Shown here one piece after another: positions 1 to 51,396 of a stretch of DNA of 64,000 bases. The stretch's first letter is position 1, and the number at the start of each line of letters is the position of its first letter. Below the pieces are notes generated by a model. The model was not told where the DNA came from and searched no databases. It was given only the letters and a program-made list of their open reading frames with translations. The DNA is from Gemmobacter lutimaris. GTDB taxonomy: Bacteria; Pseudomonadota; Alphaproteobacteria; Rhodobacterales; Rhodobacteraceae. Both the position numbers and the translations under genes were made by a program. The DNA lies in assembly GCF_003570715.1 (NCBI RefSeq), contig NZ_QXXQ01000013.1, forward strand, positions 1 to 64,000. Reading direction: 5' to 3'.

Positions 1-857
1 ATCAGCAGGCAGGCGCGCACCACCGGCTCCAGCAGGTCGCGCAAGGCCATGGGAACGAGGCCGAAAGAATTGGCCCCGGCGAGCAGCAGAAAGCCCAGCA
101 CGAAGCCCGGCACCAGCGGCGGCCGTGTGCCGCCGCCCGCCGCCGCGCCCCGCAGGATCAGCGCGCCGATCACCACGGCCGGGGCCAGCATGATCACGCG
201 GAACAGCTTGAACAGGGTCGCCACCTCGCCCACCTCGGTCGAAACCGAAAAGCCTGCGCCGACCACCTGCGCGACATCATGGATCGTGCCCCCTAGCAGC
301 AGCCCGGTGGCGGTGGTCGACAGGCCAAGGTTTGCGGCGATGATCGGATAAAGGATCATGGCGAGGGTGGAAAGCACGGTCACCGCGATGACGGTGAAGG
401 CAATATCCCTTTCGCGGCGGTCATCCTGTGGCAGCAGGGCACCGATGGCCATGGCGGCAGAGGCGCCGCAGATCGCCACCGACCCGCCTGTCAGAAATCC
501 GAACCGCCCCGGCTGGCCCAGCAGACGCGACAGCAACAGGCCAAAGCCGATGATCAGCGGCACCGAAAGCGCCACCATCACCAGCGGCAGGGCGCCCAGC
601 CCCAGCAGCATGTCGGCGCTGATGCGGATACCCAGAAGTGCCACGCCCAGCCGCAGCACATGACGCGCCGCTAGCGCGATCCCCGGTGCCGTGCGCGCCT
701 CTGCCCCCAGAAAGTTGAGCGCGAGCCCGATCAGGATGGCCATGAGCATGGCGGGTGGGCCGTAATGATCGGCCAGAAACTGCGCCGAAAGCGCCACGAC
801 CGCCGCAATGGCAAGGCCCGGAAAATAGCGGCGCGCGGAAAGGGAAAGGCTGTGCAT
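1..857 (-). CDS. YeiH-family (UPF0324) putative sulfate/sulfite exporter, 3' end outside window
   Basis: Reading the minus strand from the ATG at 857 gives an uninterrupted, very hydrophobic protein of at least 285 residues that leaves the window before its stop codon. It begins MHSLSLSARRYFPG and carries the family stretches GGSVAICGASAAMAI and GGTIHDVAQVVGAGFS, typical of the YeiH/UPF0324 family of inner-membrane proteins often annotated as putative sulfate exporters. It lies 48 bases after the TRAP binding-protein gene on the same strand, so it is probably the last visible gene of the desulfonation operon. An exporter of sulfite or sulfate is what a cell releasing sulfite from an organosulfonate would need. 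The substrate is inferred; the family is clear. Confidence 0.85.
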   Translation of the reverse strand, partial: MHSLSLSARRYFPGLAIAAVVALSAQFLADHYGPPAMLMAILIGLALNFLGAEARTAPGIALAARHVLRLGVALLGIRISADMLLGLGALPLVMVALSVPLIIGFGLLLSRLLGQPGRFGFLTGGSVAICGASAAMAIGALLPQDDRRERDIAFTVIAVTVLSTLAMILYPIIAANLGLSTTATGLLLGGTIHDVAQVVGAGFSVSTEVGEVATLFKLFRVIMLAPAVVIGALILRGAAAGGGTRPPLVPGFVLGFLLLAGANSFGLVPMALRDLLEPVVRACLL

Positions 858-905
858 GGCTGATCTCGAAACGGGGCGGGGGCTGCGCCCCGCCCCTGTC
901 TTGTC

Positions 906-1964
906 TTACTTCAGATCGGCCGCGCGGTCGGCATCGACCTTGGCCTGCGCCTCGGCAACGGCGGCGTTGAACAGGTCCAGCACCTCGGGGCCCCGCGCCA
1001 CATTGTTGCGGAACCAGTCGAACACCGGATCGACGGCAGCCTTGAACGCGGCCTTCTCTTCCGCCGAAGGCACATAGATTTCGCCACCCGCAGCGCGGAA
1101 ATCTGCGTAAGCCTGAATTTCCTTGCGCTTGGGCGAGGCGAAAGTGGCCTGTTGCAGCGCCGCGAACCCGTCCAAAACCACCTGTTTCTGAGTGTCCGTC
1201 AGGCTGTTGAAGCGGTCATTGCCCATCCACCAGAAGGCGCCCATGTAGCTGTGCCCGTCAAGCGTGAGGTATTTCACGCCGGCATCGGTGAACTTCATCG
1301 ACATGATGTCGGTGATCCCGTTCGCGGTGCCCTCGACCACCCCGGTCTGAAGCGAGGTGAACAGTTCCGGCCACGGAATCGGCGTTGGCGCGGCGCCCAG
1401 CGTGGTGGCCAGCGTCTGCGGCAGATCAGCCGGAACGGTGCGCATCTTCATCCCGGCCAGATCGGCAGGGGCGGCGATGCGCTTGCGGGTGTTGGCATAA
1501 TTGCGCCAGCCGCCGGTATTGCCAATGGTCATCAGCCGGATCTTGCTGTCTGAATCCTCCAGCACCATGTCGCGCAGCTTGCGGGTGAAATCACCCTCCA
1601 GCACGGTTTCGGCAACGCGGTCATCTGACATCAGATAGGGCAGGTCCAGCACCTGAATATAGGGGAACAGCCCCGCCGCGCCGCCGCTGGTGGAAATATA
1701 GATGTCGATCGACCCGTCGGCGAGGCCCGCGAGGCATTCATCGCCCTTGGCGCAAAGCTGGGTGCCGATGAACAGCTCGACGCCGATCTGCCCGTTCGAG
1801 GCATTCTCGACATAGTTCTTGAACACAACGAGCCCGTCGTAATCCTCGTCATTCTCGTTGGAATTGGCGGTGGCGCGCAGAACGATATCCTGTGCGAACG
1901 CACCACCGGCAGCCCCGGCCAGCGCCGATGCCAGCAGCAGCGCCTTCAGCGTCTTCGAGATCAT
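906..1964 (-). CDS. TRAP transporter solute-binding protein (DctP)
   Basis: 352-residue protein with a clear N-terminal signal peptide (hydrophobic to about residue 24, cleavage after GGAFA). It has the DctP-family layout, with the GMKMRTVPADLPQTLATTLGA region and the PWPELFTSLQTGVVEGTANG signature in the middle. As the periplasmic receptor it would capture an organic anion for the DctQM membrane pair encoded just upstream (gap of 27 bases to dctM). The gene order monooxygenase, AKR, flavin reductase, dctQ, dctM, dctP on one strand suggests that the ligand is the sulfonate substrate (for example sulfoquinovose or its glyceride). The family is certain; the ligand is inferred from neighbours only. 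Confidence 0.9.
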   Translation of the reverse strand: MISKTLKALLLASALAGAAGGAFAQDIVLRATANSNENDEDYDGLVVFKNYVENASNGQIGVELFIGTQLCAKGDECLAGLADGSIDIYISTSGGAAGLFPYIQVLDLPYLMSDDRVAETVLEGDFTRKLRDMVLEDSDSKIRLMTIGNTGGWRNYANTRKRIAAPADLAGMKMRTVPADLPQTLATTLGAAPTPIPWPELFTSLQTGVVEGTANGITDIMSMKFTDAGVKYLTLDGHSYMGAFWWMGNDRFNSLTDTQKQVVLDGFAALQQATFASPKRKEIQAYADFRAAGGEIYVPSAEEKAAFKAAVDPVFDWFRNNVARGPEVLDLFNAAVAEAQAKVDADRAADLK

Positions 1965-1991
1965 GTCATCCTCCCTGTCATTTTCTCTTGG

Positions 1992-3284
1992 TCAGTTCAC
2001 GAAACCCGCAAGGCGCGGGATGGTCAGGCTTAGCGCGGGGAAATAGGTGATCAGGAAGATCACGACGATTTCGACCGCGAGGAAGGGCAGGGTGGCGCGT
2101 GCGACGGTCTCGACCCGCAGGCCTGACACCGAGGATGTCACGAACAGCACCAGCCCCATCGGCGGGGTCAGCAGACCAACTGTCAGGTTCACCGCCATGA
2201 CGATGGCGAAATGCACGGAATCGACGCCCAGCGAGGTGAAGATCGGCCCGAGAATGGGGCCAAGGATGATGATGGCGGGGCCGGCATCCAGAAACATGCC
2301 CACCACGAACAGAAGCAGGTTGATCAGCAGCAGCAGGACCAGCGGATTGTCGGACAGGCCAAGGATGATCGAGGCCAGAAGCTCGGGCGTGTGCGACAGC
2401 GAGGCGACGGTCTTGAACGCCATGGCGGCGCCCACCAGCAGCAATACCACAGCCGAGGTGATCCCCGCCCGTGTCAGGATGCCCGGAAGATCGGCGAGCC
2501 GCAGGCTGCGCAGAACGAACATCCCGATCAGCACCGAATAGCCGACGGCCACGGCAGCGGCCTCGGTCGGGGTGAACACACCGCCCAGAATGCCGCCCAG
2601 AATGATGACTGGCGTCATCAGCGGCCAGATTGCCTTGATACTCGCCTGCCCACGTTCGCCCCAAGAGGCGCGGCGGGTGGCAGCCGGAAGGTCATAGCGG
2701 TCGGCCAGCAGGTGAATGACCAGCATCAGACCACCCCCGATCAGGATGCCCGGCACGATCCCGGCAAGGAACAGCGCGGCCACGCTTTCGCCCATCACAT
2801 AGGCATAGATGATCATGATGCCCGAAGGCGGAATGATCGGCCCGATGATCGACGATGCAGCGGTGATCGCGGCGGCGAAACGGCGGGTATAGCCCTGTTT
2901 CTCCATCGCCGGGATCAGCATGGACCCGAGGGCGGAGACATCCGCCACCGCCGAGCCGGAAAGACCCGCGAACAGCATGGATGAAAGCACATTCACATGT
3001 GCCAGCCCGCCGCGCAGATGGCCCATCATGGCCTGGCTGAACTCGACCAGCCGCAAGGTGATGTTCGAGCGGTTCATCACCTCGCCCGCCATCATGAAGA
3101 ACGGGATCGCCATCAGCGGGAAGCTGTCCATGCCGTTGTAGACATTTCGGTATAGCAGGACGAGATCACGCTCTTGCCCGTTGGCCCAAAGCAGCAGGCC
3201 GGGTGCCGCGATAAGGCCGAAGAACACCGGCAGGCCCATCAGCAGCAGCACAAGGAACAGGGGAAGGAACAGGTTCAGCATCAC
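1992..3284 (-). CDS. TRAP transporter large permease (DctM)
   Basis: 430-residue polytopic membrane protein of normal DctM length. Recognisable features are the start LFLPLFLVLLLMGLPVFFGL, the DSFPLMAIPFFMMAGEVMNRS segment, the SGSAVADVSALGSMLIPAM loop, the FTPTEAAAVAVGYSVLIG segment and the C-terminal LTPPMGLVLFVTSS. It couples a sodium gradient to uptake in TRAP systems. The start overlaps the dctQ stop by 4 bases, showing translational coupling. It is also a useful intact reference for the damaged dctM at 21361-22582. Confidence 0.93.
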   Translation of the reverse strand: MMLNLFLPLFLVLLLMGLPVFFGLIAAPGLLLWANGQERDLVLLYRNVYNGMDSFPLMAIPFFMMAGEVMNRSNITLRLVEFSQAMMGHLRGGLAHVNVLSSMLFAGLSGSAVADVSALGSMLIPAMEKQGYTRRFAAAITAASSIIGPIIPPSGIMIIYAYVMGESVAALFLAGIVPGILIGGGLMLVIHLLADRYDLPAATRRASWGERGQASIKAIWPLMTPVIILGGILGGVFTPTEAAAVAVGYSVLIGMFVLRSLRLADLPGILTRAGITSAVVLLLVGAAMAFKTVASLSHTPELLASIILGLSDNPLVLLLLINLLLFVVGMFLDAGPAIIILGPILGPIFTSLGVDSVHFAIVMAVNLTVGLLTPPMGLVLFVTSSVSGLRVETVARATLPFLAVEIVVIFLITYFPALSLTIPRLAGFVN

Positions 3285-3871
3285 TCGGCCCTCAGATCGG
3301 CGGCATCGGTGATCGCCACCAGTCCGTGATGCTGCCCGGTCAGCTCGGCCAGCCCGCGCAGCATGAGTTCGATATTGACGAGGATCAGCATGGCCAGCCC
3401 GGTGACGAGCGAGGCCATCATCCAGGATTTCGGCACCTTCACCCAGGTATCGAGGGCAAGAGACGCAGGCACCTTCAGACTGTCGGTCGCAAACCTGCCG
3501 CCAAAGCCCGTGACCTCGGACAGGCCGATGCGAAAGCCCGCGACCAGAACAACAAGCGCCAGCGCCAGAAGTGCAAGGCCCAGCAGCCGCCCGACGATGC
3601 GGGGCAGGAAGGACACCAGCATTTCGACCGAGACGAACCCGCCCCGGCGATAGGCGGTCGGGATCATCAGCCCGGTCGCCCAGAGCATGAGGAACCGCGC
3701 CGCTTCCTCAGGCCAGGGCAGCGCATTGCCGATCACATAGCGGAAGAAAACCTGTGCCAGAATGATGAGCACCATAAGGCCCATGGCCGTTGCACCAAGC
3801 AAGCGTCCCAACCAGAGCAGGGCCGCATTGAAGGCGCCCAGACCGTTCAAAAGCCTTGTGAAGGCCCCCAT
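3281..3871 (-). CDS. TRAP transporter small permease (DctQ)
   Basis: 196-residue membrane protein starting MGAFTRLLNGLGAF. The start at 3871 is preceded by a strong GGGAGGGGG ribosome-binding sequence and avoids a non-DctQ-like N-terminal extension in the longer open frame. It has about four transmembrane segments and the DctQ-type QVFFRYVIGNALPWPEEAARFLMLW motif region (split here across the first loop). It partners DctM at 1992-3284, with a 4-base overlap. It sits between the flavin reductase and the other TRAP genes in a single transcription unit. Confidence 0.9.
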   Translation of the reverse strand: MGAFTRLLNGLGAFNAALLWLGRLLGATAMGLMVLIILAQVFFRYVIGNALPWPEEAARFLMLWATGLMIPTAYRRGGFVSVEMLVSFLPRIVGRLLGLALLALALVVLVAGFRIGLSEVTGFGGRFATDSLKVPASLALDTWVKVPKSWMMASLVTGLAMLILVNIELMLRGLAELTGQHHGLVAITDAADLRAE

Positions 3872-3926
3872 GAATTCCCCCTCCCTTGTCGCGCCACCCC
3901 TCCCCGGGGGCGCGTATGCGTTGCCT

Positions 3927-4430
3927 TCAGGCGGCAGGCATAAACTGCCCGTATCGCCCGCGGGAAAATACCAGCGGCGCGCCTTCCTGCATCGCGGCCC
4001 GCAGCACACGGCCCACGATGATCAGGTGGTCGCCGCCGTCATGCGTGCCGTGTTGTGCACAGTCGAACCGCGCCAGCGCACCGGGGATCAGCGGGACACC
4101 CTCGGAATTGCGCGGCACGTCGAGACCGGAAAATCCGCCGCCGTCCCGCCCGAAACGGGCGATCCAGTCGGTCTGATCCTCGGCAAGGACATGGATCACA
4201 TAGTGCGGCGCATCCGCGAAAAAGCGGAACCGGCGCGACGCGCGGGCGGGCGACCACAGCACCAGAGGCGGGTCCATCGACAGGCTGGAAAAGCTGTTGG
4301 CGACAAAGCCCATCGGGCCTTCGGCGCTGTCGATGGTGACGACGGTGATGCCGGTCGCAAAGCAGCCAAGGGCATCGCGGAAGGCGCGCGCGCTCAGCGC
4401 GTCGGGGGTGAAGGCGGTTTCGGAACTCAT
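3927..4430 (-). CDS. Flavin reductase (FMN-binding split barrel), SmoA/HpaC-like
   Basis: 167-residue protein of the flavin reductase-like FMN-binding split-barrel family. Diagnostic segments are FRDALGCFATGITVVTIDS near the N-terminus, GFVANSFSSLSMDPPLVLWS (residues about 41-60), and the central HVLAEDQTDWIARFG. Such enzymes use NAD(P)H to make free reduced flavin for a partner monooxygenase. The partner is encoded two genes upstream (5320-6477). The ATG at 4430 overlaps the stop of the aldo/keto reductase gene (ATGA), so the monooxygenase, AKR and reductase genes are translationally coupled. This trio matches the smoA-smoB-smoC set of the sulfo-SMO sulfoquinovose pathway. The longer open frame upstream is a shadow of the AKR gene. 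Confidence 0.88.
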   Translation of the reverse strand: MSSETAFTPDALSARAFRDALGCFATGITVVTIDSAEGPMGFVANSFSSLSMDPPLVLWSPARASRRFRFFADAPHYVIHVLAEDQTDWIARFGRDGGGFSGLDVPRNSEGVPLIPGALARFDCAQHGTHDGGDHLIIVGRVLRAAMQEGAPLVFSRGRYGQFMPAA

Positions 4431-5320
4431 GGCACTTCCTGCCCCTGCGCAAGGGTGTAAAGCTCGAACCAGGTCTGCCGGTCCATAGGCACCCGCAGCG
4501 CATCGGATATGCCCGCGATGCGCGACAGGGTATTGGTGCCCAGCACCGGCAGGATGCGCGCAGGGTGATGCAGCAGCCAGGCGATTGCCGCCGCCGACCA
4601 GTCCACCCCGGCCGCGGCGCCAAGCTCGGCCAGACGCAGGCGCAAGCCTTCGCGCGATTCCGCCAGCAGGTGCCCGCCGGCGAGCGGGCTCCATGCCATC
4701 GGCGCGATACGGTTTTCCTGAAGGAACGCCAGATCGCCGTTCACGAAAGCCTCGCGTGCCAGCAGATTCAGCTCGATCTGGTTGGTGACCAGAGGCGCGG
4801 CCATGCGCGATTGCAGCAGGCGGAAATCCCACGGGCGGAAGTTCGACACACCCACCGCGCGCACCTTGCCGCTGACCACCAGCGCATCCAGCGCCGCCCC
4901 GGTTTCATCCGCATCCATCAGCGGATCGGGGCGGTGAATCAGCAGAAGGTCGATGCGGTCGGTCGCCATCTCCCGCAGGCTGGTCTCGACGCTGGCGGTG
5001 ATATGGGCGGCGCTGGTGTCGTAATATTTCACCCGCGCGGCGGCATGACGACCCACCGGCGCCACGATGTCGCATTTGGTGACAATCTCGATCCGGTCAC
5101 GCAGACCGGGCGCTGCGCGCAGGGCCGCGCCGAGAAGCCCCTCGGCAGTATAGCCGCCATAGATGTCGGCCTGATCCATCGTGGTGATGCCCTGCGCCAG
5201 ACAGGCCTCGACCTTGGCCTGCACATGGGCGGGCGAGGTATCGGCATCATCGCCCAGCCGCCACATGCCATAGACCAGCCGCGACAGGGTGATGTTTCCA
5301 AGCGTGATGCGTTCCATCAT
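4427..5320 (-). CDS. Aldo/keto reductase, SmoB-like candidate
   Basis: 297 residues from the ATG at 5320, which overlaps the monooxygenase stop by one base (TGATG); the in-frame extension upstream is a shadow of that gene. It has a full AKR barrel with the catalytic tetrad visible: D49 and Y54 in MDQADIYGGYTAEGLLG, K82 in VTKCDI and H129 in LLLIHRPDP, followed by GVSNFRPWDF and PVLGTNTLSRI. AKRs reduce aldehydes or ketones with NADPH. In the sulfo-SMO pathway the equivalent enzyme reduces 6-dehydroglucose, formed by desulfonation of sulfoquinovose, to glucose. The family call is firm; the substrate follows only from the context of the flavin reductase and SsuD-like neighbours. Confidence 0.88.
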   Translation of the reverse strand: MMERITLGNITLSRLVYGMWRLGDDADTSPAHVQAKVEACLAQGITTMDQADIYGGYTAEGLLGAALRAAPGLRDRIEIVTKCDIVAPVGRHAAARVKYYDTSAAHITASVETSLREMATDRIDLLLIHRPDPLMDADETGAALDALVVSGKVRAVGVSNFRPWDFRLLQSRMAAPLVTNQIELNLLAREAFVNGDLAFLQENRIAPMAWSPLAGGHLLAESREGLRLRLAELGAAAGVDWSAAAIAWLLHHPARILPVLGTNTLSRIAGISDALRVPMDRQTWFELYTLAQGQEVP

Positions 5321-6477
5321 CAGCGGCGTTCTCCGTTTGCAAGGGGCGTGGCGGGAGGGCTGGCGGGCACCCGGCCATAGGCATGGGGCAGCGAGCAGGT
5401 CTTGATCTGTGGCAAAACCTTGGTCCCGAAGTGGTCGCATTCATCCAGATGCGGATAGCCCGAGAAGATGAAGGCCCGGATGCCCATCTTGCGGTATTCC
5501 TCGATCCGGGTCAGCACCTGATCGACCGATCCGACCAGCGCTGCGCCGCAGCCGGAGCGGGCGCGTCCGATGCCCGTCCATAATTGCGGCTCCACATAGC
5601 CGAACTGATCGGCCAGTTCGCGCGCGCGGGCCTGATGCGCGACACCCAGCGAGATGCTGTCATGCGCCCGGTCGCGGATCAGCTTGCCATATTCATAGTC
5701 CAGCTTGCTGACCAGATGACCGGCATATTCGCGGGCCTCTGCCTCGGTATCGCGGACGATCATATGCACCCGCAGCCCGTAATCCAGCGTGCGGCCATGC
5801 GCCGCCGCGCGTTCGTGAACCGCGCGCATCCGGTTGGCCAGCATCTCCTGCGGTTCGGGCCACATCAGATAGACATCACATTGCGCCCCGCAGAGTTCCA
5901 GCGCATCGGGGCTGTAGCCACCGAAATACAGCAGCGGGCCGCCGTTCTGCTGATAGGGCCGTGCCGGATCGCTGCTGACTTTTGCAATCTTGTAGACCTC
6001 GCCGTCATATTCGATGTGATCGCGGGTCCATGCCTGGCGCAGGATCTCGACCACCTCGTGACTGCGGCGATAGCGATAGGCACTGTCGGCCACCTCGCCC
6101 GGAAAATCAGAGGAAATGACATTCAGTGTCAGCCGCCCCTGCAACATGTGGTCCAGTGTCGCCACGGTGCGGGCCAGCATGACAGGCTGCATCTCCCCGC
6201 AGCGGATGGCGGCGAGAAAGTTGATGCGGTCGGTGATCGGCGCGCAGCCCGCAACGAAAGACAGGGTATCCTGCCCGACCTGATAGGAGGACGGGCAGAG
6301 GATATTGCGAAACCCGTGCCCCTCGGCGCGCTGCACGATCGAGGAACAATGCGCCCAGCTGGAGCGCAGGCGGCCGTCCGGCACGCCGAGATATTCATAA
6401 TCATCGGAGCAAAGCGCCGCGAACCAGCTGACTTCGGCGGCATCCAGATCGGCGGAGGTTACAGGAACGACGGTCAT
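5320..6477 (-). CDS. LLM-class flavin-dependent sulfonate monooxygenase (SsuD/SmoC-like)
   Basis: 385-residue luciferase-fold monooxygenase. Active-site features of alkanesulfonate monooxygenase SsuD are present in order: C61 in ILCPSSYQVGQD, the R236-x-H238 pair in YGLRVHMIVRDT, an arginine/glycine-rich loop RARSGCGAALVGS (305-317) and SGYPHLDE (339-346), which matches the SsuD Tyr-Pro-His motif. It would use reduced flavin and O2 to cleave a C-S bond, releasing sulfite and an aldehyde. The reductase supplying flavin, an AKR for the aldehyde, a TRAP importer and a possible sulfite exporter follow on the same strand. SmoC (sulfoquinovose monooxygenase) fits this set better than SsuD, because simple alkanesulfonate operons do not normally include an AKR or a TRAP system. 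The substrate is inferred. Confidence 0.88.
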   Translation of the reverse strand: MTVVPVTSADLDAAEVSWFAALCSDDYEYLGVPDGRLRSSWAHCSSIVQRAEGHGFRNILCPSSYQVGQDTLSFVAGCAPITDRINFLAAIRCGEMQPVMLARTVATLDHMLQGRLTLNVISSDFPGEVADSAYRYRRSHEVVEILRQAWTRDHIEYDGEVYKIAKVSSDPARPYQQNGGPLLYFGGYSPDALELCGAQCDVYLMWPEPQEMLANRMRAVHERAAAHGRTLDYGLRVHMIVRDTEAEAREYAGHLVSKLDYEYGKLIRDRAHDSISLGVAHQARARELADQFGYVEPQLWTGIGRARSGCGAALVGSVDQVLTRIEEYRKMGIRAFIFSGYPHLDECDHFGTKVLPQIKTCSLPHAYGRVPASPPATPLANGERR

Positions 6478-6531
6478 CGATTCTCTCTATTCCACATGCA
6501 TCTTTTCTCTTGCGTAGCATCCGCCAATATG

Positions 6532-6551
6532 TAGATCAATACTATATCAAT
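6532..6551. promoter_or_regulatory. Candidate GntR operator: tandem direct repeats in divergent promoter
   Basis: In the 85-base region between the divergent monooxygenase and gntR starts there are two near-identical 9-mers, TAGATCAAT (6532-6540) and TATATCAAT (6543-6551). They are 11 bp apart, about one helical turn, just before the gntR ribosome-binding site. Such a site would allow the regulator to control both transcripts. It is a visual motif only. Confidence 0.35.
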
Positions 6552-6562
6552 TTGAGGTGGTC

Positions 6563-7264
6563 ATGGCGAAGCCCGGCTCTCTGCCCGTCTATCAACAGGT
6601 TGCGGAACTGCTGATCCGTGACATCGCGGCCGGTCGGCTGATTGACGGCGAACGCCTTCCGCCAGAGCGCGAGATGGCCTCCGGCCTTGGCATCGCGGTG
6701 GGAACCCTGCGTCAGGCGCTGAAATCGCTGGCAGAAAAGGGTTTGCTGGACCGGGTGCAGGGGTCGGGCAACTATATCCGGGCGAAATCGGACCCGGCTT
6801 CGGTCTATGCCATGTTTCGGCTGGAACGGGTGGAGGGGGGTGGCCTGCCCACGGCCGAGGTGCTTTCGGTGGACCGCCTGGCCAAATCGCCCGACCTGCC
6901 AGCCTTTGGCACCAGCGCCGAAGGCCACCGCATCCGCCGCCTGCGCTTTCTGTCAGGGCAGGTCGCGGCGGTCGAGGAAATCTGGCTCGACGGTGACATC
7001 GTTCCGCAGATCGGTGCCGATGACCTGTCGGAATCGCTTTACCTGTTCTACCGGCAACGGCTTGGCCTGTGGATTGCACGCGCCGAAGACCGTATCGGCC
7101 TCGGCCCTTGCCCCGACTGGGCACCTGCGCGCTTTACCCACCGGCCCGGCGCGCCGCTACCGTTGATCACCCGGATCAGCTGGTCCCAGGGGGGCCAGTC
7201 TGCCGAAGCGTCCTTCACCTGGTATGACCCCGATACCGTGCGCTATGTCGCGCGGCTGAAATGA
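6563..7264 (+). CDS. GntR/HutC-family transcriptional regulator (wHTH + UTRA)
   Basis: 233 residues from the ATG at 6563, chosen because GAGG lies five bases upstream; a GTG two codons earlier is possible. The N-terminal winged helix is typical GntR: PVYQQVAELLIRDIAAGRL, then LPPEREMASGLGIAVGTLRQALKSL and a wing ending VQGSGNYIR (about residue 70). The C-terminal part, about residues 80-233, reads as a UTRA effector domain (RIRRLRFLSGQVAAVEEIWL, then LITRISWSQGG). It is divergent from the desulfonation operon and overlaps the next gene. It is therefore probably a local repressor responding to a pathway sugar or sulfosugar. Confidence 0.88.
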   Translation: MAKPGSLPVYQQVAELLIRDIAAGRLIDGERLPPEREMASGLGIAVGTLRQALKSLAEKGLLDRVQGSGNYIRAKSDPASVYAMFRLERVEGGGLPTAEVLSVDRLAKSPDLPAFGTSAEGHRIRRLRFLSGQVAAVEEIWLDGDIVPQIGADDLSESLYLFYRQRLGLWIARAEDRIGLGPCPDWAPARFTHRPGAPLPLITRISWSQGGQSAEASFTWYDPDTVRYVARLK

Positions 7265-7272
7265 GGATTCCC

Positions 7273-8388
7273 ATGAAAACCTTGCGTTATGGCATCATCG
7301 GCTGCGGCATGATGGGGCAGGAACATCTGCGCAATATCGCGCTGCTGCCCGATGCCGAGGTGGTGGCCATTTTCGAACCCGATGCCGCCATGCGGGCCGA
7401 GGCGGCGCGTCATTGCCCCGGTGCGCGGCTCGTCGATTCGGTGGCGGCGGTTCTGGCTGTGGCCGAGGTGAACTGCCTGCTGATCGCCAGCCCGAACTTC
7501 CTGCATCTTGCGCAGCTTGAGGAAATTGCGGAGATCCGCCCGCTGCCGGTGCTATGCGAAAAGCCGCTGTTCACCGATCCGGCGGATGCGCCCCGGCTGG
7601 CGGCCCTGCGCGCTGCCTATCCCGCGCCGATCTGGGTGGCGATGGAATATCGCTACATGCCCCCCGTCGCGCATCTGATCCGCGAGGCCGAAGCGGCGAC
7701 CGGCGGCATCCGCATGCTGACAATCCGCGAACACCGCTTTCCCTTTCTGGAAAAGGTGGGCGACTGGAACCGGTTCAACGCCCGGACCGGCGGCACACTT
7801 GTTGAAAAATGCTGCCATTTCTTTGATTTGATGCGCCTGATCGCGCAATGTGATCCGGTCCGGGTCATGGCTTCGGGCGGGCAGGCGGTGAACCATCTGG
7901 ACGAATGTTACGAGGGCGCGACGCCGGACATCTGGGATCATGCCTATGTCATCGTCGATTTTGAAAACGGCATGCGCACGATGCTGGAACTTTGCATGTT
8001 CGCCGAGGGCAGCCGCTATCAGGAAGAGATCAGCGCCGTCGGGCCGTCGGGCAAGATCGAATGCCTTGTGCCGGGACCGGGCCGGTTCTGGCCGGCGCAT
8101 CTGGGCGCCCCGCCGGTGCCGCAGGTGATTGTCAGCCCGCGTGAGCCGAAAGGGCCGCGTCTGCTGGAAGTGCCGGTGGACCCAGATCTGCTGGCGGCGG
8201 GCGATCACAACGGATCAACCTTCTATCAGCATCAGGGATTTGCCCGTGTGGTTGCAGGCACGCAAGCCCCCGAAGTCAGCCTGACGGACGGCTGGTGGGC
8301 CGTAGCCATCGGCATGGCCGCACAGGAAAGCGCCCGCACAGGTCAGGCGGTGGATCTGCGCCATGCTGTGCCCGAGGCGACGGTGTGA
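7273..8388 (+). CDS. Gfo/Idh/MocA-family NAD-dependent protein; candidate NAD-dependent sulfoquinovosidase or sugar dehydrogenase
   Basis: 371 residues from the ATG at 7273, which has GAGGA six bases upstream; an ATG four codons earlier overlaps the gntR stop. It has an N-terminal Rossmann fold with GIIGCGMMGQEHL, the family EKP motif (VLCEKPLFTDPAD) and the C-terminal-domain motif GGTLVEKCCHFFDLMR, where the catalytic His/Asp of this superfamily are found. Members are sugar dehydrogenases or, in several GH families, NAD-dependent glycosidases. NAD-dependent sulfoquinovosidases (GH188) of this general architecture are known from sulfoquinovose clusters that lack a classical GH31 sulfoquinovosidase, and no GH31 gene is visible here. 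That makes this role attractive but unproven. A dehydrogenase role is the alternative. Confidence 0.85.
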   Translation: MKTLRYGIIGCGMMGQEHLRNIALLPDAEVVAIFEPDAAMRAEAARHCPGARLVDSVAAVLAVAEVNCLLIASPNFLHLAQLEEIAEIRPLPVLCEKPLFTDPADAPRLAALRAAYPAPIWVAMEYRYMPPVAHLIREAEAATGGIRMLTIREHRFPFLEKVGDWNRFNARTGGTLVEKCCHFFDLMRLIAQCDPVRVMASGGQAVNHLDECYEGATPDIWDHAYVIVDFENGMRTMLELCMFAEGSRYQEEISAVGPSGKIECLVPGPGRFWPAHLGAPPVPQVIVSPREPKGPRLLEVPVDPDLLAAGDHNGSTFYQHQGFARVVAGTQAPEVSLTDGWWAVAIGMAAQESARTGQAVDLRHAVPEATV

Positions 8389-8670: not shown

Positions 8671-10593
8671 TCAGCCTGCTGCCTTGCGCCGTCGTGCGGC
8701 CCAACCCGTCAGCAGGTGATCCGCCATCAACCCCATGAAAGCGACGGCAAGACCCAGCACTAGCCCCTTGCCGACATCGGTGGAGGACAAGGCGCGCTGC
8801 ATTTCCTGACCCAGATCCTGCGTGCCGATGAAGGCCGCAATGATCACCATGAACAGGGCGAACATGATCGACTGGTTTGCACCGATCATCAGGGTCGGCA
8901 AGGCCAGGGGCAGCTTCACATGCCACAAGAGTTGCGCCCGGCCCGCGCCCGACATTTCGGCCGCTTCGATCGTTTCGGGCGGAACTCCACACAGCCCCTC
9001 GATGGTGAAGCGCAGGATCGGCACTGTGGCAAAGACCATGACAGCCGCAACGACCGCCACATCATTCACCCCGAACAGCATCACGACCGGGATCAGGTAG
9101 ATGAAGCTCGGGAAGGTCTGGAGCGTGTCGCAGAGCAGCAGAAATCGCCGCGCGCGGTTGGGGCGGGCGGCGGCCCATAACCCCAGCGGCAGCCCGATCA
9201 GAAGCGCGATGGTTACAGCTACGGTCACCGTATATACGGTAATCATCGCCCGGTCCCACCAACCCGACAGCGCAATCGGCAGGATGAAGGCAAGGCAGAT
9301 CAGGGCCGAACGCACACCACCCACCAGCCAGCCAAGGGCAGCGATAAATGCCAGAACGGCGCTGAATGGCAGCCACAGGAATCCGTCGCGCAGCGGTATC
9401 AGAACCCATGTGATCAGGAACCAGCGGAGCCAGTCGGTCAGCGGGGTCACAAGGCGGATGAATCCGTCCACCCCGGCATCTATCGGCACCGCGAGGCTCA
9501 GCGCCTGTTTGCGTTCGACCCCCGCGAAATAGGGATGCGCTGCTGCCAGCGCGAAGCCCGCGGCGCACAACCCCAGCCAGATCAGCAACAGCCGGTTGCG
9601 CGCGGCCCAGGTGGCGCCGGGTTCCAGATGCGCGGGCTGCTTCATCGCCCAGGCTTTGGACAGCCGGTCCAGCACCACGGCCAGCAACACGATGGTGATA
9701 CCGATCTCGACGGACAGTCCGATTTTCAGTGATTGCAACAGGTTCAGCAGCTTCTGCCCCAGCCCCGGCATCCCGATGAACGAGGCCAGCACCACCATGG
9801 CAAGGCTTTGCATGATGACCTGATTGATACCGATCAGCAGCTCGGTCCGGGCAGCCGGAATGCGGACGCTGCGCATCAGCTGCCATTTGGTTGTGCCGCT
9901 CATCTTGCCGCTTTCGATGATCTCGGGCGGCACAGCGCGCAGACCCAGCAGCGTCATGCGGATCATCGGTGGCACCGAGAAGATGATGGTGACGATGGCG
10001 CCCGCTTTCGGCCCGACGCCGATGAACACCACAACCGGAATCATATAGGCGAAATGAGGCAGCGATTGCGCGATGTTGAGGATCGGGTTCATCACCCGCT
10101 CGACCCCGCGGAACCGCCAGGCCAGTGTGCCCGCCGACAGGCCCAGAGCCACCGAAAAAGGCGCTGCGACCATGATGACCGACAGGGTTTCCATCGCCCA
10201 TTTCCATTGCCCCATGACGGCGATCCAGACGAATGTGCCTGCCGACAGCAGCGCCAGCCGCCAGCCGGCCAGGGCATACCCCGCCATGCCCATCGTGGCG
10301 GCGATGACGACCCAGGGGATCGGCCCCAGCCGCGGCCAGCGCGACTTGCCGTAAAGCAGGTTCGCCGTCACATCGAGGCAAAACTCCACCGCGCCGGAAA
10401 AGGCACGAGTCACCGCCATCAACCCCAGATCGTCGCGCAGAAAGGCAAAGACCGCGTTGATCCAGTCCGCGAAAGGCAGGATCAACGGTTCGGGCAGTCG
10501 GATCAGTGCTTCGGGCAGGGCGAAACGGCCAAGGCACAGCAGCAACGCCAGACCTAGCAGCATGAGCGCGGGGTGGGAAAGACGCGGGTTCAT
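8671..10593 (-). CDS. Quaternary-amine ABC transporter permease, duplicated-domain (ProW/OpuAB/TmoW type)
   Basis: 640-residue membrane protein made of two binding-protein-dependent permease modules. The first covers roughly residues 130-310 and carries the EAA-type loop PPEIIESGKMSGTTKWQLMR. The second covers roughly 430-620 with PPETIEAAEMSGAGRAQLLW. The two loops are clearly homologous, showing an internal duplication. ProW/OpuAB of ordinary betaine systems have one such domain; a double-length permease is seen in some proteobacterial betaine/TMAO systems. The start overlaps the ATPase stop by 4 bases. It would carry a small methylated amine across the inner membrane. Confidence 0.9.
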   Translation of the reverse strand: MNPRLSHPALMLLGLALLLCLGRFALPEALIRLPEPLILPFADWINAVFAFLRDDLGLMAVTRAFSGAVEFCLDVTANLLYGKSRWPRLGPIPWVVIAATMGMAGYALAGWRLALLSAGTFVWIAVMGQWKWAMETLSVIMVAAPFSVALGLSAGTLAWRFRGVERVMNPILNIAQSLPHFAYMIPVVVFIGVGPKAGAIVTIIFSVPPMIRMTLLGLRAVPPEIIESGKMSGTTKWQLMRSVRIPAARTELLIGINQVIMQSLAMVVLASFIGMPGLGQKLLNLLQSLKIGLSVEIGITIVLLAVVLDRLSKAWAMKQPAHLEPGATWAARNRLLLIWLGLCAAGFALAAAHPYFAGVERKQALSLAVPIDAGVDGFIRLVTPLTDWLRWFLITWVLIPLRDGFLWLPFSAVLAFIAALGWLVGGVRSALICLAFILPIALSGWWDRAMITVYTVTVAVTIALLIGLPLGLWAAARPNRARRFLLLCDTLQTFPSFIYLIPVVMLFGVNDVAVVAAVMVFATVPILRFTIEGLCGVPPETIEAAEMSGAGRAQLLWHVKLPLALPTLMIGANQSIMFALFMVIIAAFIGTQDLGQEMQRALSSTDVGKGLVLGLAVAFMGLMADHLLTGWAARRRKAAG

Positions 10594-11621
10594 GCTGCGG
10601 GACCAAGCAGCAGGTCCAGTGCCGCAGCGCGGTCGATCAGGCCGGTGACCACGCCGTCACGGCCCGCGACCGGGATCAGGGCACGGTCGTCCTGAAGAAT
10701 GCGCCGGGCCAGCGCATGCAACGTCTCGATCGCGGGAAGCGCCGGCCCGTCGATGGCCCGTCCTTCGACCGCCAGCGCCAGCGCCCCGGCATGCACCACC
10801 CGCGCGCGATCTACAGCCGAGGTGAACTTGGCCACATAGGGGGTCGCCGGTGCCATCACGATGCGTTCCGGCGTGTCGATCTGTTCAATGGCGCCGTCCT
10901 TCATGATGGCGATGCGGTCGGCCAGCCGCAGCGCCTCGTCGAAATCATGGGTGATGAAAACGATGGTCTTGGCGAGCATCCCCTTCAGCCGCAGGAATTC
11001 ATCCTGCATCTCGCGCCGGATCAGCGGGTCCAGCGCCGAAAAGGGTTCGTCCAGAAACCAGATGTCCGGCTCTACCGCCAGACTGCGGGCGATGCCGACG
11101 CGCTGCTGCTGTCCGCCCGAAAGCTCGCGCGGGAAATAGCCCTCGCGCCCGCCGAGGCCCACGAGATTCAGCATCTCGCTGGCCCGCGCGATACGCGAAA
11201 TCCGGTCCTGCCCGCGCATTTCCAGCGGAAAGGCCACGTTTTCCAGCGCGGTGCGATGTGGCAGCAGGCCGAAGCTTTGAAACACCATGCCCATCTTGCG
11301 GCGACGCAGGTCGATCAGCTCGGTTTCGGTCATTGTGCCCAGGTCACGGCCCTCGACGGTGATCGCGCCGTCGGTAATGTCGATCAGCCGGGCAAGACAA
11401 CGGATCAGCGTGGATTTGCCGGAACCCGAAAGCCCCATGACCACCAGCATCTCGCCCCGCGCGATGTCGAGCGACACATTGCGCACCGCCGCGACATGGC
11501 CGGTCGCGCGCAGCTCTTCCGAAGTGGTTTCAGGCTTCAGGTGCCCGGTCAGTCGCTCGGGGTGATCGCCGAATACCTTCCAGACGTTCTTGCAGGAAAT
11601 GACGTTGTCGTTCTGACCCAT
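10590..11621 (-). CDS. Quaternary-amine ABC transporter ATPase (ProV/OpuAA/TmoV type)
   Basis: 343-residue ATPase with Walker A (GLSGSGKST), signature LSGGQQQR and Walker B (DIWFLDEPFSALDP). The ProV-type N-terminus KNVWKVFGDHPE is present, as is a long insert before Walker A including TSEELRATGHVAAVRNVSL. The C-terminal ~70 residues (LHALARRILQDDRALIPVAGRDGVVTGLIDRA) look like a CBS-type module, as in osmotically regulated ProV/OpuAA. It is coupled to the double permease gene by a 4-base overlap. It powers uptake of the ligand bound by the protein encoded at 11717-12670. Confidence 0.92.
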   Translation of the reverse strand: MGQNDNVISCKNVWKVFGDHPERLTGHLKPETTSEELRATGHVAAVRNVSLDIARGEMLVVMGLSGSGKSTLIRCLARLIDITDGAITVEGRDLGTMTETELIDLRRRKMGMVFQSFGLLPHRTALENVAFPLEMRGQDRISRIARASEMLNLVGLGGREGYFPRELSGGQQQRVGIARSLAVEPDIWFLDEPFSALDPLIRREMQDEFLRLKGMLAKTIVFITHDFDEALRLADRIAIMKDGAIEQIDTPERIVMAPATPYVAKFTSAVDRARVVHAGALALAVEGRAIDGPALPAIETLHALARRILQDDRALIPVAGRDGVVTGLIDRAAALDLLLGPAA

Positions 11622-11646
11622 GGTCGGACCTCGCAGCAGGGAAAGG

Positions 11647-11667
11647 CCACCCGGAAGAGCCGGGTGG
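11647..11667 (-). other. Intercistronic stem-loop between binding-protein and ATPase genes
   Basis: Perfect 8-bp inverted repeat CCACCCGG (11647-11654) and CCGGGTGG (11660-11667) with a 5-base loop, in the 95-base gap between the binding-protein stop and the ATPase start. Such hairpins commonly protect the upstream binding-protein message from 3' decay and so raise its level over the permease. Confidence 0.55.
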
Positions 11668-11716
11668 AGTTGGGCGTCCTGTCACAGGGAGGTGACGGAT
11701 GAACGCGCGGGCGAAG

Positions 11717-12676
<960 letters not shown>

Positions 12677-19004: not shown

Positions 19005-19997
19005 ATGACCAACTTTAAGGCCGCCACCGCGGCATCCCTGATCGTGCTTGGCGCCACCGCGGCGCAGGCGGATGTGATCAAGTTCAGCTATCCGGTGGCC
19101 GAGGACAGCACCATGGGCCAGACGGTGAACAAGTTTGCCGAGCTGGTCGAGGCCAAGACCGGCGGCGCGGTCACGGTCAAGGCATTCCCGAGCGCGCAGC
19201 TTGGTAATGAAATCCAGTCGATCTCGGCTGCGCAGGGCGGCATCGTCGAGGCGGCGGTGACGACCACGGCAGGTCTTGCCGCCATGGTGCCTGAATTCGA
19301 CATGTTCAACGCGCCCTTCACCTTTGACAGCTACGCCCAGCTTGACGCCGTGACCCGCAGCGCGGTCGGCAATGACATTCTGTCCAAGCTGGAGCCGAAC
19401 AACATCGTTGGCCTGTGCTACTGGGATTACGGCTTCCGCAACATCACCAACAACAAGCGCCCGGTGAAGACGCTGGAAGATGTCAGCGGTCTGCGGGTGC
19501 GCACCATCCAGAACGCGGTCTATATCGACTCGCTTCAGGCCATGGGCATGAATCCGACGCCCCTGCCCTTCCCCGAAACCTTCACCGCGCTTGAGACCGG
19601 CGCCATCGACGGCAACGAGATCGCCAATGACGTGACGCGCGCCGGATCGTTCTTCGAGGTGCAGAAATACCTGACCGAGACACGGCATTTCACGACGCTG
19701 TCTGTGATGTATGTGTCGAAGAAGCTCTGGGACGGGCTGGAGCCGGCGGAGCAGACCGCCGTGCGCGAAGCCTGCCTCGAAACTTCGGAGTTCAACCGCC
19801 AGATCATCAATGACGGCGCGCAGGGCACGCTTGATTTCCTTGCGGAAAAAGGCATGCAGATCGACGAGATCGCCCCCGAGGAGCTGGCGCGGTTCCGCAC
19901 AGCCGTGGCGCCGGTGGTGGAAAAGATCAATGCCCGGTTCGACCCTGCCTTCGTGCAGGCTTTCAAGGCCGAAGTCGAAGCCAACAAGGGCAACTGA
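19005..19997 (+). CDS. TRAP transporter solute-binding protein (DctP)
   Basis: 330 residues, preceded by a strong GGGAGGAG ribosome-binding site. Signal peptide to about residue 23 (TAAQADV). DctP features include GLRVRTIQNAVYIDSLQAMGMNPTPLPFPE and FTALETGAIDGNEIANDV, the conserved binding-arginine region. It is the receptor for a second TRAP system whose small and large permeases follow after an SDR gene. Ligands of this class are carboxylates. Linked FAH and SDR genes suggest a sugar acid. Confidence 0.92.
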   Translation: MTNFKAATAASLIVLGATAAQADVIKFSYPVAEDSTMGQTVNKFAELVEAKTGGAVTVKAFPSAQLGNEIQSISAAQGGIVEAAVTTTAGLAAMVPEFDMFNAPFTFDSYAQLDAVTRSAVGNDILSKLEPNNIVGLCYWDYGFRNITNNKRPVKTLEDVSGLRVRTIQNAVYIDSLQAMGMNPTPLPFPETFTALETGAIDGNEIANDVTRAGSFFEVQKYLTETRHFTTLSVMYVSKKLWDGLEPAEQTAVREACLETSEFNRQIINDGAQGTLDFLAEKGMQIDEIAPEELARFRTAVAPVVEKINARFDPAFVQAFKAEVEANKGN

Positions 19998-20052
19998 GCC
20001 CGCAGCGGCAGGGGCATCGCCCCTGCTGCCAACCAGAAACAGGAGAGAACGC

Positions 20053-20796
20053 GTGCTGTTGCAAGGTCGGACCGCCATCGTCACCGGCGCCGGGAATCTG
20101 GACGGGATCGGCTTTGCCGTCGCCCGCCTTTTCGTGGCCGAAGGCGCGCGGGTCATTCTGGCAGATCGCGATGCGGCGGGCGTGGCCGAGGCGGCCGGGG
20201 TGCTGGGTCCGGCGGCGCTTGGCTCGGCGACCGATGTGACCGATGCCGGGGCCTGCGCCGATCTTTGCGCCCTTGCGCGCGACCGTTTCGGCGGGCTGGA
20301 CATTCTGGTCAATTCCGCAGGCCGCGTGCAGGCCCGCCGCACCGTTGACATCACACGCGAGGATTATGACGCCGTGATGGATGTGAACCTGCGCGGCACC
20401 TTGCAGATGTGCCAGTCGGCGCTGGGGCTGATGGGGGCCGGCGCCTCCATCATCTGCATCGCCTCCATCGCTGCGCAGCGCGGCGGCGGGCTGATGGGCG
20501 GGCCGCATTACGCCGCCTCCAAGGCGGGGGTTCTGGGGCTGGTCCGGGCCATGGCGCGCGATGTCTCGCCCTCCGGCATCCGGGTCAATGCCATCAATCC
20601 CGGCGTGATCCTGTCTTCCATGACCCGCGGCTTTTATGACGACGACCTGACCGAAAAGGTCATGTCGCAGATCCTGCTGCGCCGCTTTGGCGAAACCGAC
20701 GATGTGGCACGGGCCTGCCTGTTCCTCGCTTCGGACCTGTCATCCTACATCACCGGATCGTCGCTCGACGTGAACGGCGGCATGCACATGAACTGA
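20053..20796 (+). CDS. SDR-family oxidoreductase
   Basis: 247 residues from a GTG at 20053 with AGGAGA five bases upstream; the long upstream frame is a shadow of dctP. Classical SDR features: TGAGNLDGIGFAVA nucleotide-binding loop, LVNSAG, catalytic S in CIASIAAQRGG and the Y-A-A-S-K motif in HYAASKAGVLGLV, then NAINPGVI. It would oxidise or reduce a sugar or sugar acid with NAD(P). The gene is inserted between dctP and dctQ, which ties it to metabolism of the transported compound. Confidence 0.88.
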   Translation: MLLQGRTAIVTGAGNLDGIGFAVARLFVAEGARVILADRDAAGVAEAAGVLGPAALGSATDVTDAGACADLCALARDRFGGLDILVNSAGRVQARRTVDITREDYDAVMDVNLRGTLQMCQSALGLMGAGASIICIASIAAQRGGGLMGGPHYAASKAGVLGLVRAMARDVSPSGIRVNAINPGVILSSMTRGFYDDDLTEKVMSQILLRRFGETDDVARACLFLASDLSSYITGSSLDVNGGMHMN

Positions 20797-20834
20797 GGCC
20801 GCGCGCCTGTCGCGCGCCCGCCGGGGAGGAGCCG

Positions 20835-21359
20835 ATGACGACCCTGTTCCAACTTTATCTGCGCCTGTTGAAGGGCTTCATCGTCTTTTGCCTTGCCGGC
20901 ATGGTGGTGCTGGTCTTCGGCAATGTTGTGTTGCGCTATGCTTTCAACTCGGGACTGACCATGTCCGAGGAGTTCTCGCGCTGGCTGTTCGTCTGGATGA
21001 CCTTCGTCGGTGCCATCGTGGTGCTGCATGAAAACGGCCATCTGGGGCTGGATTTCATCGTGAACGCCCTGCCCCGCCCGCTGCGCCGCCTGTGCCTCGT
21101 GCTGGCGCACGGGCTGATGGTCTATGCGACATGGCTGGTGCTGGCCGGAAGCTGGGTGCTGGTTTCGGTCAACAGCAATTCCTATGCCCCCGCCACTGGC
21201 CTTCCAATGTCGCTTCTGTTCGGGGTCGGGCTGGTGTTCGGCCTGTCCACTGCCGCGATCCTGCTGTGGCGGATCTGGCTGATCCTGACCGGACGGCTGG
21301 ACCGCATCACCATCATCGACGAAGAGGCCGCCGCGCTGCATCAGGCCGGGGTGAAATGA
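20835..21359 (+). CDS. TRAP transporter small permease (DctQ)
   Basis: 174-residue protein with about four membrane segments and the DctQ-type region VVLRYAFNSGLTMSEEFSRWLFVWMTFVGA, followed by HLGLDFI. GGGGAGGAG precedes the start. It ends one base before the damaged dctM gene, so the pair was once co-translated. Confidence 0.9.
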   Translation: MTTLFQLYLRLLKGFIVFCLAGMVVLVFGNVVLRYAFNSGLTMSEEFSRWLFVWMTFVGAIVVLHENGHLGLDFIVNALPRPLRRLCLVLAHGLMVYATWLVLAGSWVLVSVNSNSYAPATGLPMSLLFGVGLVFGLSTAAILLWRIWLILTGRLDRITIIDEEAAALHQAGVK

Positions 21360-21360
21360 T

Positions 21361-22582
21361 ATGACGCTGCTGATCTTTCTGGGCTGCCTGCTGGGCGGCA
21401 TGGCGATCGGGATGCCGATTGCCTATGCGCTGATCATGTCCGGCATCGGGCTGATGGTCTATCTGGATTTCTTTGATGCGCAGATCGTGGCGCAGAACCT
21501 GCTGAACGGGGCAGACAGTTTCCCGCTGATGGCCGTGCCCTTCTTCATGCTGGCGGGCGAGGTGATGAACACCGGCGGCCTGTCGCGCCGCATCGTCAAC
21601 CTGTCGGTGGCGGCGGTGGGCCATGTGCGGGGCGGGCTGGGCTATGTTGCCATTCTGGCGGCGGCGGTGCTGGCCAGCCTGTCGGGCTCGGCCGCGGCGG
21701 ATGCGGCGGCGCTGTCGGCCATTCTGGTGCCGATGATGGTGCGCGCCGGACATGGGCCGGGCCGGTCGGCCGGGCTGATTGCCTCGGCCGGGATCTCGGC
21801 GCTGATCATCCCGCCCTCCATCGGGTTCATCCTGCTGGGCGTTGTGGGCAATATCTCGATCACCCGGCTTTTCATCGCCGGGATCGTGCCCGGGATTCTG
21901 ATGTGCGGGGTTCTGGCGCTGACCTGGATGCTGGTGGCCCGTCACGACCGGGTAGAGCCGCTGCCGCGCGCACCCCGCGGCGCCGTGCTGGCCGAGGCGC
22001 GCGCCGGGATCTGGGCACTGATGCTGCCGGTGATCATTCTGGTCGGCCTGCGCATGGGCATGTTCACCCCGACGGAAGCCTGCCGATCTGTATCCGGTGT
22101 TTCTGGGCGCGGCCAAGACTACGGCCATGGTGATGTTTCTTGTCGCCGCCGCCATGGTGTCCAGCTGGATGGTCACGATTGCGGGCCTGACCGACCAGAT
22201 CGCGGCACTGACTGCCCCCTTCGCGCATGATCCGCGGCTTCTGATGCTGGTGGTCGTGGCGCTGGTGCTGGTGGTCGGTTGCGCCATGGATATGGTGCCG
22301 ATCATCCTGATCCTGTTCCCGGTGCTGCTGCCGGGCGTCAAGGCGGCGGGCATCGACCCGGTCTATTTCTCGGTTGTGTTCATGATCGCCACGGCGGTCG
22401 GCCTGCTGACCCCGCCGGTCGGATCGGTGCTGAACGTGGTGGCGGGCGTGTCGCGGGTGCCGCTGACGCGGGTGATCGGAGGCATTTGGCCCTTCATCAT
22501 CGCACAGCTTCTGGTGCTTGCGCTGCTGATCCTTTTTCCTGCAATCGTGATCGTACCCGCCGGGTTTATCTCGGGGCAGTGA
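21361..22582 (+). pseudogene. TRAP large permease dctM, frameshifted by an internal deletion
   Basis: From 21361 the frame is a normal DctM N-terminal two-thirds (SFPLMAVPFFMLAGEVMNTGG, SGSAAADAAALSAILVPMM) through RMGMFTPTEA near 22080, then becomes nonsense. The C-terminal third continues in the +1 frame as ADLYPVFLGAAKTTAMVMFLVAAAM and runs to the stop at 22582 with LTPPVGSVLNVVAGVSRVPL. Compared with the intact DctM at 1992-3284, roughly 20-25 residues that normally join PTEAA to this segment are missing. A deletion of about 65-70 bases, not divisible by three, explains both the loss and the frame change. Either the transporter is inactive, or this is an assembly error. Confidence 0.82.
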
Positions 22583-49753: not shown

Positions 49754-49810
49754 CGGATTCTCCCTGTCGCCCCACATGCATTTAGGAATGATTTGCAACT
49801 GTCAAGCCAG

Positions 49811-49827
49811 ATGCGAGCCATTTGCAT
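49811..49827. promoter_or_regulatory. Candidate Mur/Fur-family operator between sitA and the regulator
   Basis: An imperfect 17-bp palindrome with ATGC-A arms (ATGCGA at 49811, TTTGCAT to 49827) lies in the divergent promoter. A second TTTGCA occurs near 49791 and TTGCAT near 49835. The TTTGCA/TGCAAA core resembles Mur-responsive sites of alphaproteobacteria. Confidence 0.4.
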
Positions 49828-49869
49828 CTGAGACTTGCATCCGCACGGGAAAATGCGCGAAGAGAAAGT

Positions 49870-50313: not shown

Positions 50314-50483
50314 GCGCACGGAAAATCCGCGATTGCAGTGGCCAGAAACACCCGGCATCAGCGGATGTTTCTGGACATGGCAACGCTATGGGGAAGATGG
50401 CGCGAGCCTGCTTCAACCCTGTTGAGGAATGTGCCTCAAGACCCGCCCTGAATTCTGGAGGATGACGGTCCTGCCGGGCAGCG

Positions 50484-51392: not shown

Positions 51393-51396
51393 CGGA

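Follow-up and report, generated by a model that had tools for sequence, protein, structure and literature searches.

The first 64,000 nucleotides of contig NZ_QXXQ01000013.1 of Gemmobacter lutimaris (assembly GCF_003570715.1), hereafter the window, open with a cluster of genes which in all likelihood represents a sulfoquinovose monooxygenase (sulfo-SMO) catabolic operon with a tripartite ATP-independent periplasmic (TRAP) system, DctQMP, as its importer. This cluster, apparently carried on a plasmid, very probably lets the bacterium import the sulfosugar of plant and algal lipids, remove its sulfur and eat the glucose that remains. A preliminary description of the window had proposed such a variant, with sulfo-SMO-like enzymes, a TRAP importer for the sulfosugar, a Gfo/Idh/MocA-type protein as glycosidase and a YeiH protein as exporter of sulfite. 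Both the sulfo-SMO pathway and the part that GH188 glycosidases play in it are already known; beyond these, DctQMP is probably the first recognised member of a family of sulfosugar TRAP importers, which would serve both SMO and Embden-Meyerhof-Parnas (EMP)-like routes in Rhodobacteraceae, import sulfoquinovosyl glycerol for a cytoplasmic GH188 enzyme and have traded places repeatedly with ATP-binding cassette (ABC) importers, with the SmoCBA-GntR core and its operator staying largely the same.

SMO enzymes and the GH188 protein

Comparison of the window monooxygenase with solved protein chains gave 770 bits for 7olf and 740 bits for 7oh2, followed by 7jv3 (205 bits) and by 1m41 and 1nqk (199 bits each), the last three being chains named alkanesulfonate monooxygenase. 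The SmoC of Agrobacterium tumefaciens locus L187 is nearly identical to 7olf, and as L187 also encodes the protein whose solved structure bears the name SmoF, a sulfoquinovosyl glycerol-binding protein, this locus was taken to be a canonical smo cluster. Identity between the window and the A. tumefaciens cluster amounts to 85% for SmoC, 72% for SmoB, 56% for SmoA and 66% for GntR. The aldo-keto reductase (AKR) of the window scored 473 bits against 7bbz/7bby, chains which we take to be Agrobacterium SmoB, as compared to 230 bits for the next chain. Orthology with the smo cluster of Agrobacterium thus bears out the proposal of sulfo-SMO-like enzymes, and with a SmoC orthologue that is not SsuD and a SmoB-type AKR and a flavin reductase encoded alongside, the gene cluster is, as judged from its sequence, a sulfolytic sulfoquinovose (sulfo-SMO) locus.

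The alternative of an SsuD-type operon that scavenges sulfur from alkanesulfonates and bears no relation to sulfosugars is scarcely credible: while the monooxygenase has a Bac_luciferase domain and its best NCBIfam match is alkanesulfonate monooxygenase, the scores of 242 of 518 and 236 of 510 bits are less than half of the SsuD cut-offs, the chain scores set it with SmoC, SmoB and GH188 genes are its partners in the locus, and a SmoC profile found in 21 of 385 Alphaproteobacteria separates a SmoC group of nine genomes (752-803 bits) from the next relatives in the other 12 (405-436 bits). A plain SsuD identity was rejected on the chain scores, the NCBIfam cut-offs and this gap, and the grouping with SsuD that the preliminary description had named as evidence against itself was not observed.

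The window and the Agrobacterium cluster have the SmoCBA and GntR orthologues and the operator of the divergent promoter region in common. Where Agrobacterium relies on a GH31 glycosidase and an ABC importer of the SmoF type, the window encodes GH188 and a TRAP system, and in addition YeiH. A SmoF orthologue was looked for in the G. lutimaris genome and none was found, the best match being 29% identical. A fusion of SmoA with DctQ was rejected as a general feature, as it occurs as a single 377-aa open reading frame (ORF) at one locus (L126) among the 186 loci surveyed below.

The Gfo/Idh/MocA-type protein scored 550 bits against 8zn9, its nearest solved homologue, which is named only 'oxidoreductase, putative', 379 bits against 8qc3 (ArSqgA) and 375 bits against 8qc2 (FlSqgA), the latter two codes being those given in the part of PMC10755693 that was available; the next chain reached 57.6 bits. 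An inositol dehydrogenase was rejected as its identity, given at most 57.6 bits to non-SqgA chains and a score of 96.8 of 355 bits. The catalytic and sulfonate-binding residues listed for ArSqgA in that part of PMC10755693 (K107, Y136, R166, L170, K172, E189, H193, H321 and a Glu written 163) correspond to K97, Y126, R155, L159, K161, E178, H182, H312 and E153 of the window protein, where the mapping involves a chain-numbering offset of 13 and the Glu written 163 counts as 164. These nine residues are the same in 156 of 156 aligned rows, which comprise the window protein and those from the 155 of 186 loci (that of the window included) at which the match exceeds 300 bits and 330 positions. Kinship to SqgA and the residues in place establish membership of GH188 and uphold, at residue level, the earlier reading of this protein as a glycosidase, with sulfoquinovosidase activity predicted from its likeness to ArSqgA and FlSqgA. 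No GH31 gene was found across the G. lutimaris genome, and inspection of the GH188 protein by eye revealed no signal peptide, its sequence starting directly with the nucleotide-binding fold. As GH188 enzymes need NAD+ and the window protein is without an export signal, the glycoside presumably enters the cell uncleaved. The occurrence of GH188 in sulfo-SMO clusters has been published, and in Roseobacter-clade clusters it is described as near-universal (PMC10755693, in the same part).

The TRAP importer and its probable substrate

The loci surveyed for importers came from two sets. The family set derives from 248 Rhodobacteraceae genomes, one per genus, 106 of which have SmoC, and up to 20 kb was fetched around each of these 106 genes; the named set represents the best 80 of at least 585 confirmed relatives in another collection, giving 186 loci together. 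The two sets overlap, since for at least 7 of the 80 named loci the SmoC-coding DNA recurs unchanged among the 106. SmoB, SmoA, GntR and GH188 were all recognisable in the fetched stretch at 86 of the 106 family-set loci, the window's included, and smoC and gntR are divergent at 101 of them; this arrangement is not due to chance. The TRAP system of the window, with dctP, dctQ and dctM encoded together, was found at 59 family-set loci, a second ABC type (ABC-II) at 12 and neither at 35, while the named set contains 27 TRAP loci, 16 ABC-II loci, 15 loci with the Agrobacterium-type ABC importer (all 15 with GH31) and 22 with none of these. The catabolic core has been kept while the importer was exchanged: 17 changes of importer label are required on a SmoC tree (FastTree, 189 rows), with at least five for TRAP forced by starred branches. 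The binding protein of the second ABC type was sought in the G. lutimaris genome without a match, an empty result which by itself shows nothing.

Plasmid records present the same picture, since 10 of 11 records with SmoC at 71% identity or more also carry DctP at 65-82%. These plasmid TRAP loci, among them those of Ruegeria sp. TM1040, Roseicitreum antarcticum and Rhizobium sp. SL42, resemble the window in combining SmoC with DctP, and their annotation is generic only ('TRAP transporter', 'LLM class oxidoreductase').

The exchanged loci also share a candidate operator. Divergent smoC and gntR genes with clear starts and a spacing of 30-400 bases were available at 174 of the 186 loci, and a site resembling GTAGATCAATAGTGTATCAATT, the seed of which was picked after inspecting k-mer counts, was present in all 174 intergenic regions. 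In the real regions 16 or more of the 22 letters agree (median 20), as compared to a maximum of 15, attained in 8 cases, among 3480 shuffled regions; 173 of the 174 regions contain the hexamer ATCAAT, whereas the commonest hexamer of one shuffle reached 20. The site is common to TRAP, ABC-I and ABC-II loci, including that of Agrobacterium, and at two or fewer mismatches it is single in the G. lutimaris genome (6531-6552), with none in the reversed control. GntR may control both arms through this site, to which it is predicted to bind.

The distribution of DctP bears directly on what the transporter carries. Orthologues 62-84% identical to the window DctP occur in 86 of the 248 Rhodobacteraceae genera, the next matches standing at 48-50% and 38%, and as a control the other DctP of the window (19005-19994) has matches in 6 of 248 genomes only. 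GH188 was detected in 83 of the 86 genomes with DctP as compared to 45 of the 162 without (Fisher p 2e-28, uncorrected for kinship). SmoC accompanies DctP in 63 of the 86 genomes; among the other 23, in which SmoC gave no match, 21 encode GH188 at some place in the genome and 16 have a fucose-isomerase-like gene near DctP. At these 16 loci the neighbours, identified with Pfam from one representative of each cluster, are GH188 (16 of 16), a PfkB kinase (14), a DeoC/LacD aldolase (14), a DeoR regulator (13), a 2-hydroxyacid dehydrogenase (11), an aldehyde dehydrogenase (10) and an aldose epimerase (9), a set which would be sulfo-EMP-like by analogy with published descriptions. The SMO and EMP labels are interleaved on the DctP tree (89 rows: 63 SMO, 17 EMP, one of them a distant 48% protein, and 9 other), with 11 changes needed and at least four forced by starred branches. 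Reuse of the TRAP system by SMO and EMP-like routes therefore points to a shared substrate, sulfoquinovose or its glycosides. The earlier suggestion that this transporter imports the sulfosugar is thereby supported through its co-occurrence with GH188, its reuse with a different sulfoquinovose pathway and the shared operator, and the TRAP form appears to be a widespread variant with a substrate assignment that the comparative evidence favours.

Several observations weigh against this assignment. The 35 of 106 SmoC loci without this TRAP or the two ABC types (10 of the 35 within 6 kb of a stretch end) have been mentioned; in addition, 3 of the 86 genomes with DctP gave no GH188 match, and among the 23 SmoC-less DctP loci 7 have neither the full SMO nor the EMP-like set nearby, some of them having SmoA, SmoB or GntR-GH188 in the absence of SmoC and two having none of these. 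The SMO and EMP labels are partly clustered on the DctP tree (11 changes as compared to 15.5 in shuffles), YeiH was found with 7 of 59 and 8 of 27 TRAP loci, a minority in both sets, and the AlphaFold2 model of DctP, built with 27 sequences, was poor (mean pLDDT 54), so that no pocket inference was drawn from it. TRAP binding proteins are moreover said, in the part of PMC4646407 that was available, to be restricted to carboxylates by a conserved arginine.

This last statement, and the 35 loci at which other importers can therefore serve, would suit a sulfo-SMO locus that is real but whose TRAP system imports another co-travelling substrate, for instance a C2 or C3 sulfonate, a uronic acid or an aldonic acid, with sulfoquinovose entering by other means. 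We consider this improbable, as the same TRAP system stands beside two unrelated sulfoquinovose pathways, both with GH188, occupies the place of ABC genes in loci with the same core, and belongs to a genome in which no SmoF orthologue was found; furthermore, a TRAP protein for a sulfonate is known, the isethionate-binding DctP 8t9t being the fourth-best profile match to the window DctP (125 bits). Arg154 and Arg175 of DctP, at positions which we take to touch the ligand, are invariant in the 27 orthologues and both align with arginines of 4p47. The isethionate DctP and the taurine transporter TauKLM are members of the same protein family as the window TRAP system, but they are distant in sequence and serve small C2 sulfonates, not sugars; the naming of tauMLK as a taurine transporter is that of PMC5320631, as far as its available part goes. 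Import of sulfoquinovose or its glycosides by DctQMP remains our preferred reading.

Two further observations concern these TRAP loci. At locus L247, GntR, GH188, SmoA, SmoB and TRAP are present with no SmoC match at the expected place, which may reflect loss or replacement of the monooxygenase. In addition, a gene of the di-haem MauG/cytochrome c peroxidase family lies near the TRAP genes, downstream of dctP (loci L037-L142 and L243-L272, for example L068 and L243), with PF03150 in two representatives and two CXXCH motifs in each of the 14 proteins inspected. It occurs in 31 of 59 TRAP loci as compared to 3 of 47 other SmoC loci (Fisher p 2e-7, uncorrected for kinship) and in 14 of 16 EMP-like TRAP loci, and the G. 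lutimaris genome has a weak partial match only (39% over 155 residues).

Possible sulfur export, locus layout and replicon

The yeiH gene follows dctP directly in 5 of the 59 family-set TRAP loci, the window's included, and in 8 of the 27 named TRAP loci. Its product belongs to the YeiH/TauZ family (PF03601); the window-cut protein, which is not the full frame, scored 106.6 of 232.6 bits against NCBIfam TIGR00698, below the cut-off. We take TauZ to be a member of the YeiH family. Export of sulfite by YeiH, as first suggested, is plausible only. According to comparative genomics of the TauR regulon (PMC5320631, in its available part), TauE exports sulfite, while TauZ exports the sulfate that arises when sulfite is oxidised; as sulfate export is thereby assigned to a related protein, the exported species may be either sulfite or sulfate. 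A role of YeiH in exporting sulfate that a sulfite dehydrogenase has formed elsewhere in the cell, or some other role, is accordingly a serious contender, if slightly short of an even prospect. The TauE and TauZ assignments speak for it, as does a second YeiH-family gene of the same plasmid, 58% identical, in a taurine-type operon with pta, an xsc-like frame, a TauE-family gene and TRAP genes, while no sulfite-oxidising gene was seen in the sulfo-SMO operon, the genome not having been searched for one. Another YeiH-family gene, 80% identical to that of the operon, is found on a further contig (C74, 166938-167819; L274).

The genes named in the preliminary description, including the divergent GntR and Gfo/Idh/MocA genes, were all recovered through ORFs and Pfam or NCBIfam matches (Table 1). 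Its account of an overlapping operon holds for smoC/smoB, smoB/smoA and dctQ/dctM but not for smoA-dctQ, dctM-dctP and dctP-yeiH, which are separated by short gaps of about 55, 27 and 48 bases, respectively.

Table 1. Features of the sulfo-SMO locus at the start of the window, with the matches on which each assignment is based.
Feature	Position	Strand	Evidence or remark
YeiH/TauZ-family (PF03601) exporter	3..857	-	cut by the first base of the window; N-terminal 285 of 331 aa; Pfam PF03601, 175 bits
DctP, TRAP solute-binding protein, predicted binder of sulfoquinovose or sulfoquinovosyl glycerol	906..1964	-	PF03480
DctM, TRAP large permease	1992..3284	-	PF06808, 391 bits
DctQ, TRAP small permease	3281..3871	-	PF04290, 77 bits
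SmoA-like flavin reductase, predicted supply of reduced FMN	3927..4430	-	PF01613
SmoB-like AKR, predicted 6-oxo-glucose to glucose	4427..5320	-	structure-chain matches
SmoC-like sulfoquinovose monooxygenase (SsuD-like, Bac_luciferase domain)	5320..6477	-	structure-chain matches
Putative operator GTAGATCAATACTATATCAATT, divergent smoC/gntR promoter region	6531..6552	+	conserved site
GntR/UTRA regulator	6557..7264	+	PF00392 and PF07702
GH188 predicted NAD+-dependent sulfoquinovosidase, SqgA-like (Gfo/Idh/MocA)	7261 (start maybe 7273)..8388	+	chain matches and residues

The first base of the window is also that of its contig, here termed C5. The missing end of YeiH was located at C5:116234-116416, the full 331-aa frame running across the contig junction, and the two ends of C5 share an exact overlap of 127 bases; C5 is on these grounds a circle of 116,303 bp, and was taken to be a plasmid owing to its genes for a ParA-type ATPase and ParB domains. 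Elsewhere on C5 (the window and 64001-116430), the taurine-type operon lies at about 74-85 kb and nir- and nor-like genes, from sequence reading only, at about 101-112 kb. Window positions 48012-59031 read as a nitrous oxide reductase cluster, with nosZ-type propeller repeats confirmed at 54941-56866 and neighbours that look like nosR, nosD, nosF and nosY, so that one plasmid appears to hold an O2-requiring sulfosugar pathway together with denitrification genes. Adjoining the locus, positions 8671-12670 resemble a glycine betaine/choline ABC importer with permease, ATPase and binding protein, again from sequence reading only, and 19005-22579 represents a second TRAP operon, the DctM homologue of which is split over ORFs 21361-22227 and 22097-22579, perhaps by a frameshift.

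Proposed pathway and implications

In the mechanism that we propose, DctP would bind sulfoquinovose and probably also sulfoquinovosyl glycerol in the periplasm, for import by DctQM on an ion gradient, following which the cytoplasmic NAD+-dependent GH188 enzyme would split the glycoside to free sulfoquinovose. By orthology, SmoC would then use O2 and reduced flavin mononucleotide (FMN) from SmoA to form sulfite and 6-oxo-glucose, the latter being converted to glucose by SmoB, while the YeiH/TauZ-family protein may export sulfite, or sulfate after oxidation. GntR is expected to regulate both arms through the single operator between smoC and gntR.

A search of the literature for a sulfoquinovose TRAP importer or a sulfosugar TRAP protein found none described, the figures and supplement of PMC10755693 lying outside this search, so that a prior depiction is possible. 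The word TRAP is absent from the main texts of PMC12890257, PMC13372026 and PMC9594981, and in the passages inspected from texts containing both sulfoquinovose and 'trap' the latter stands for an ion trap, a column or the verb 'to trap'. If the assignment of the TRAP system is true, about one third of the sampled Rhodobacteraceae genera (86 of 248) carry a sulfosugar importer, one which is annotated only as 'TRAP transporter' in the plasmid records examined. DctP could in that case serve as a marker gene for sulfolytic as well as sulfoglycolytic users, and would represent a test protein for the recognition of sulfonates instead of carboxylates by TRAP systems.

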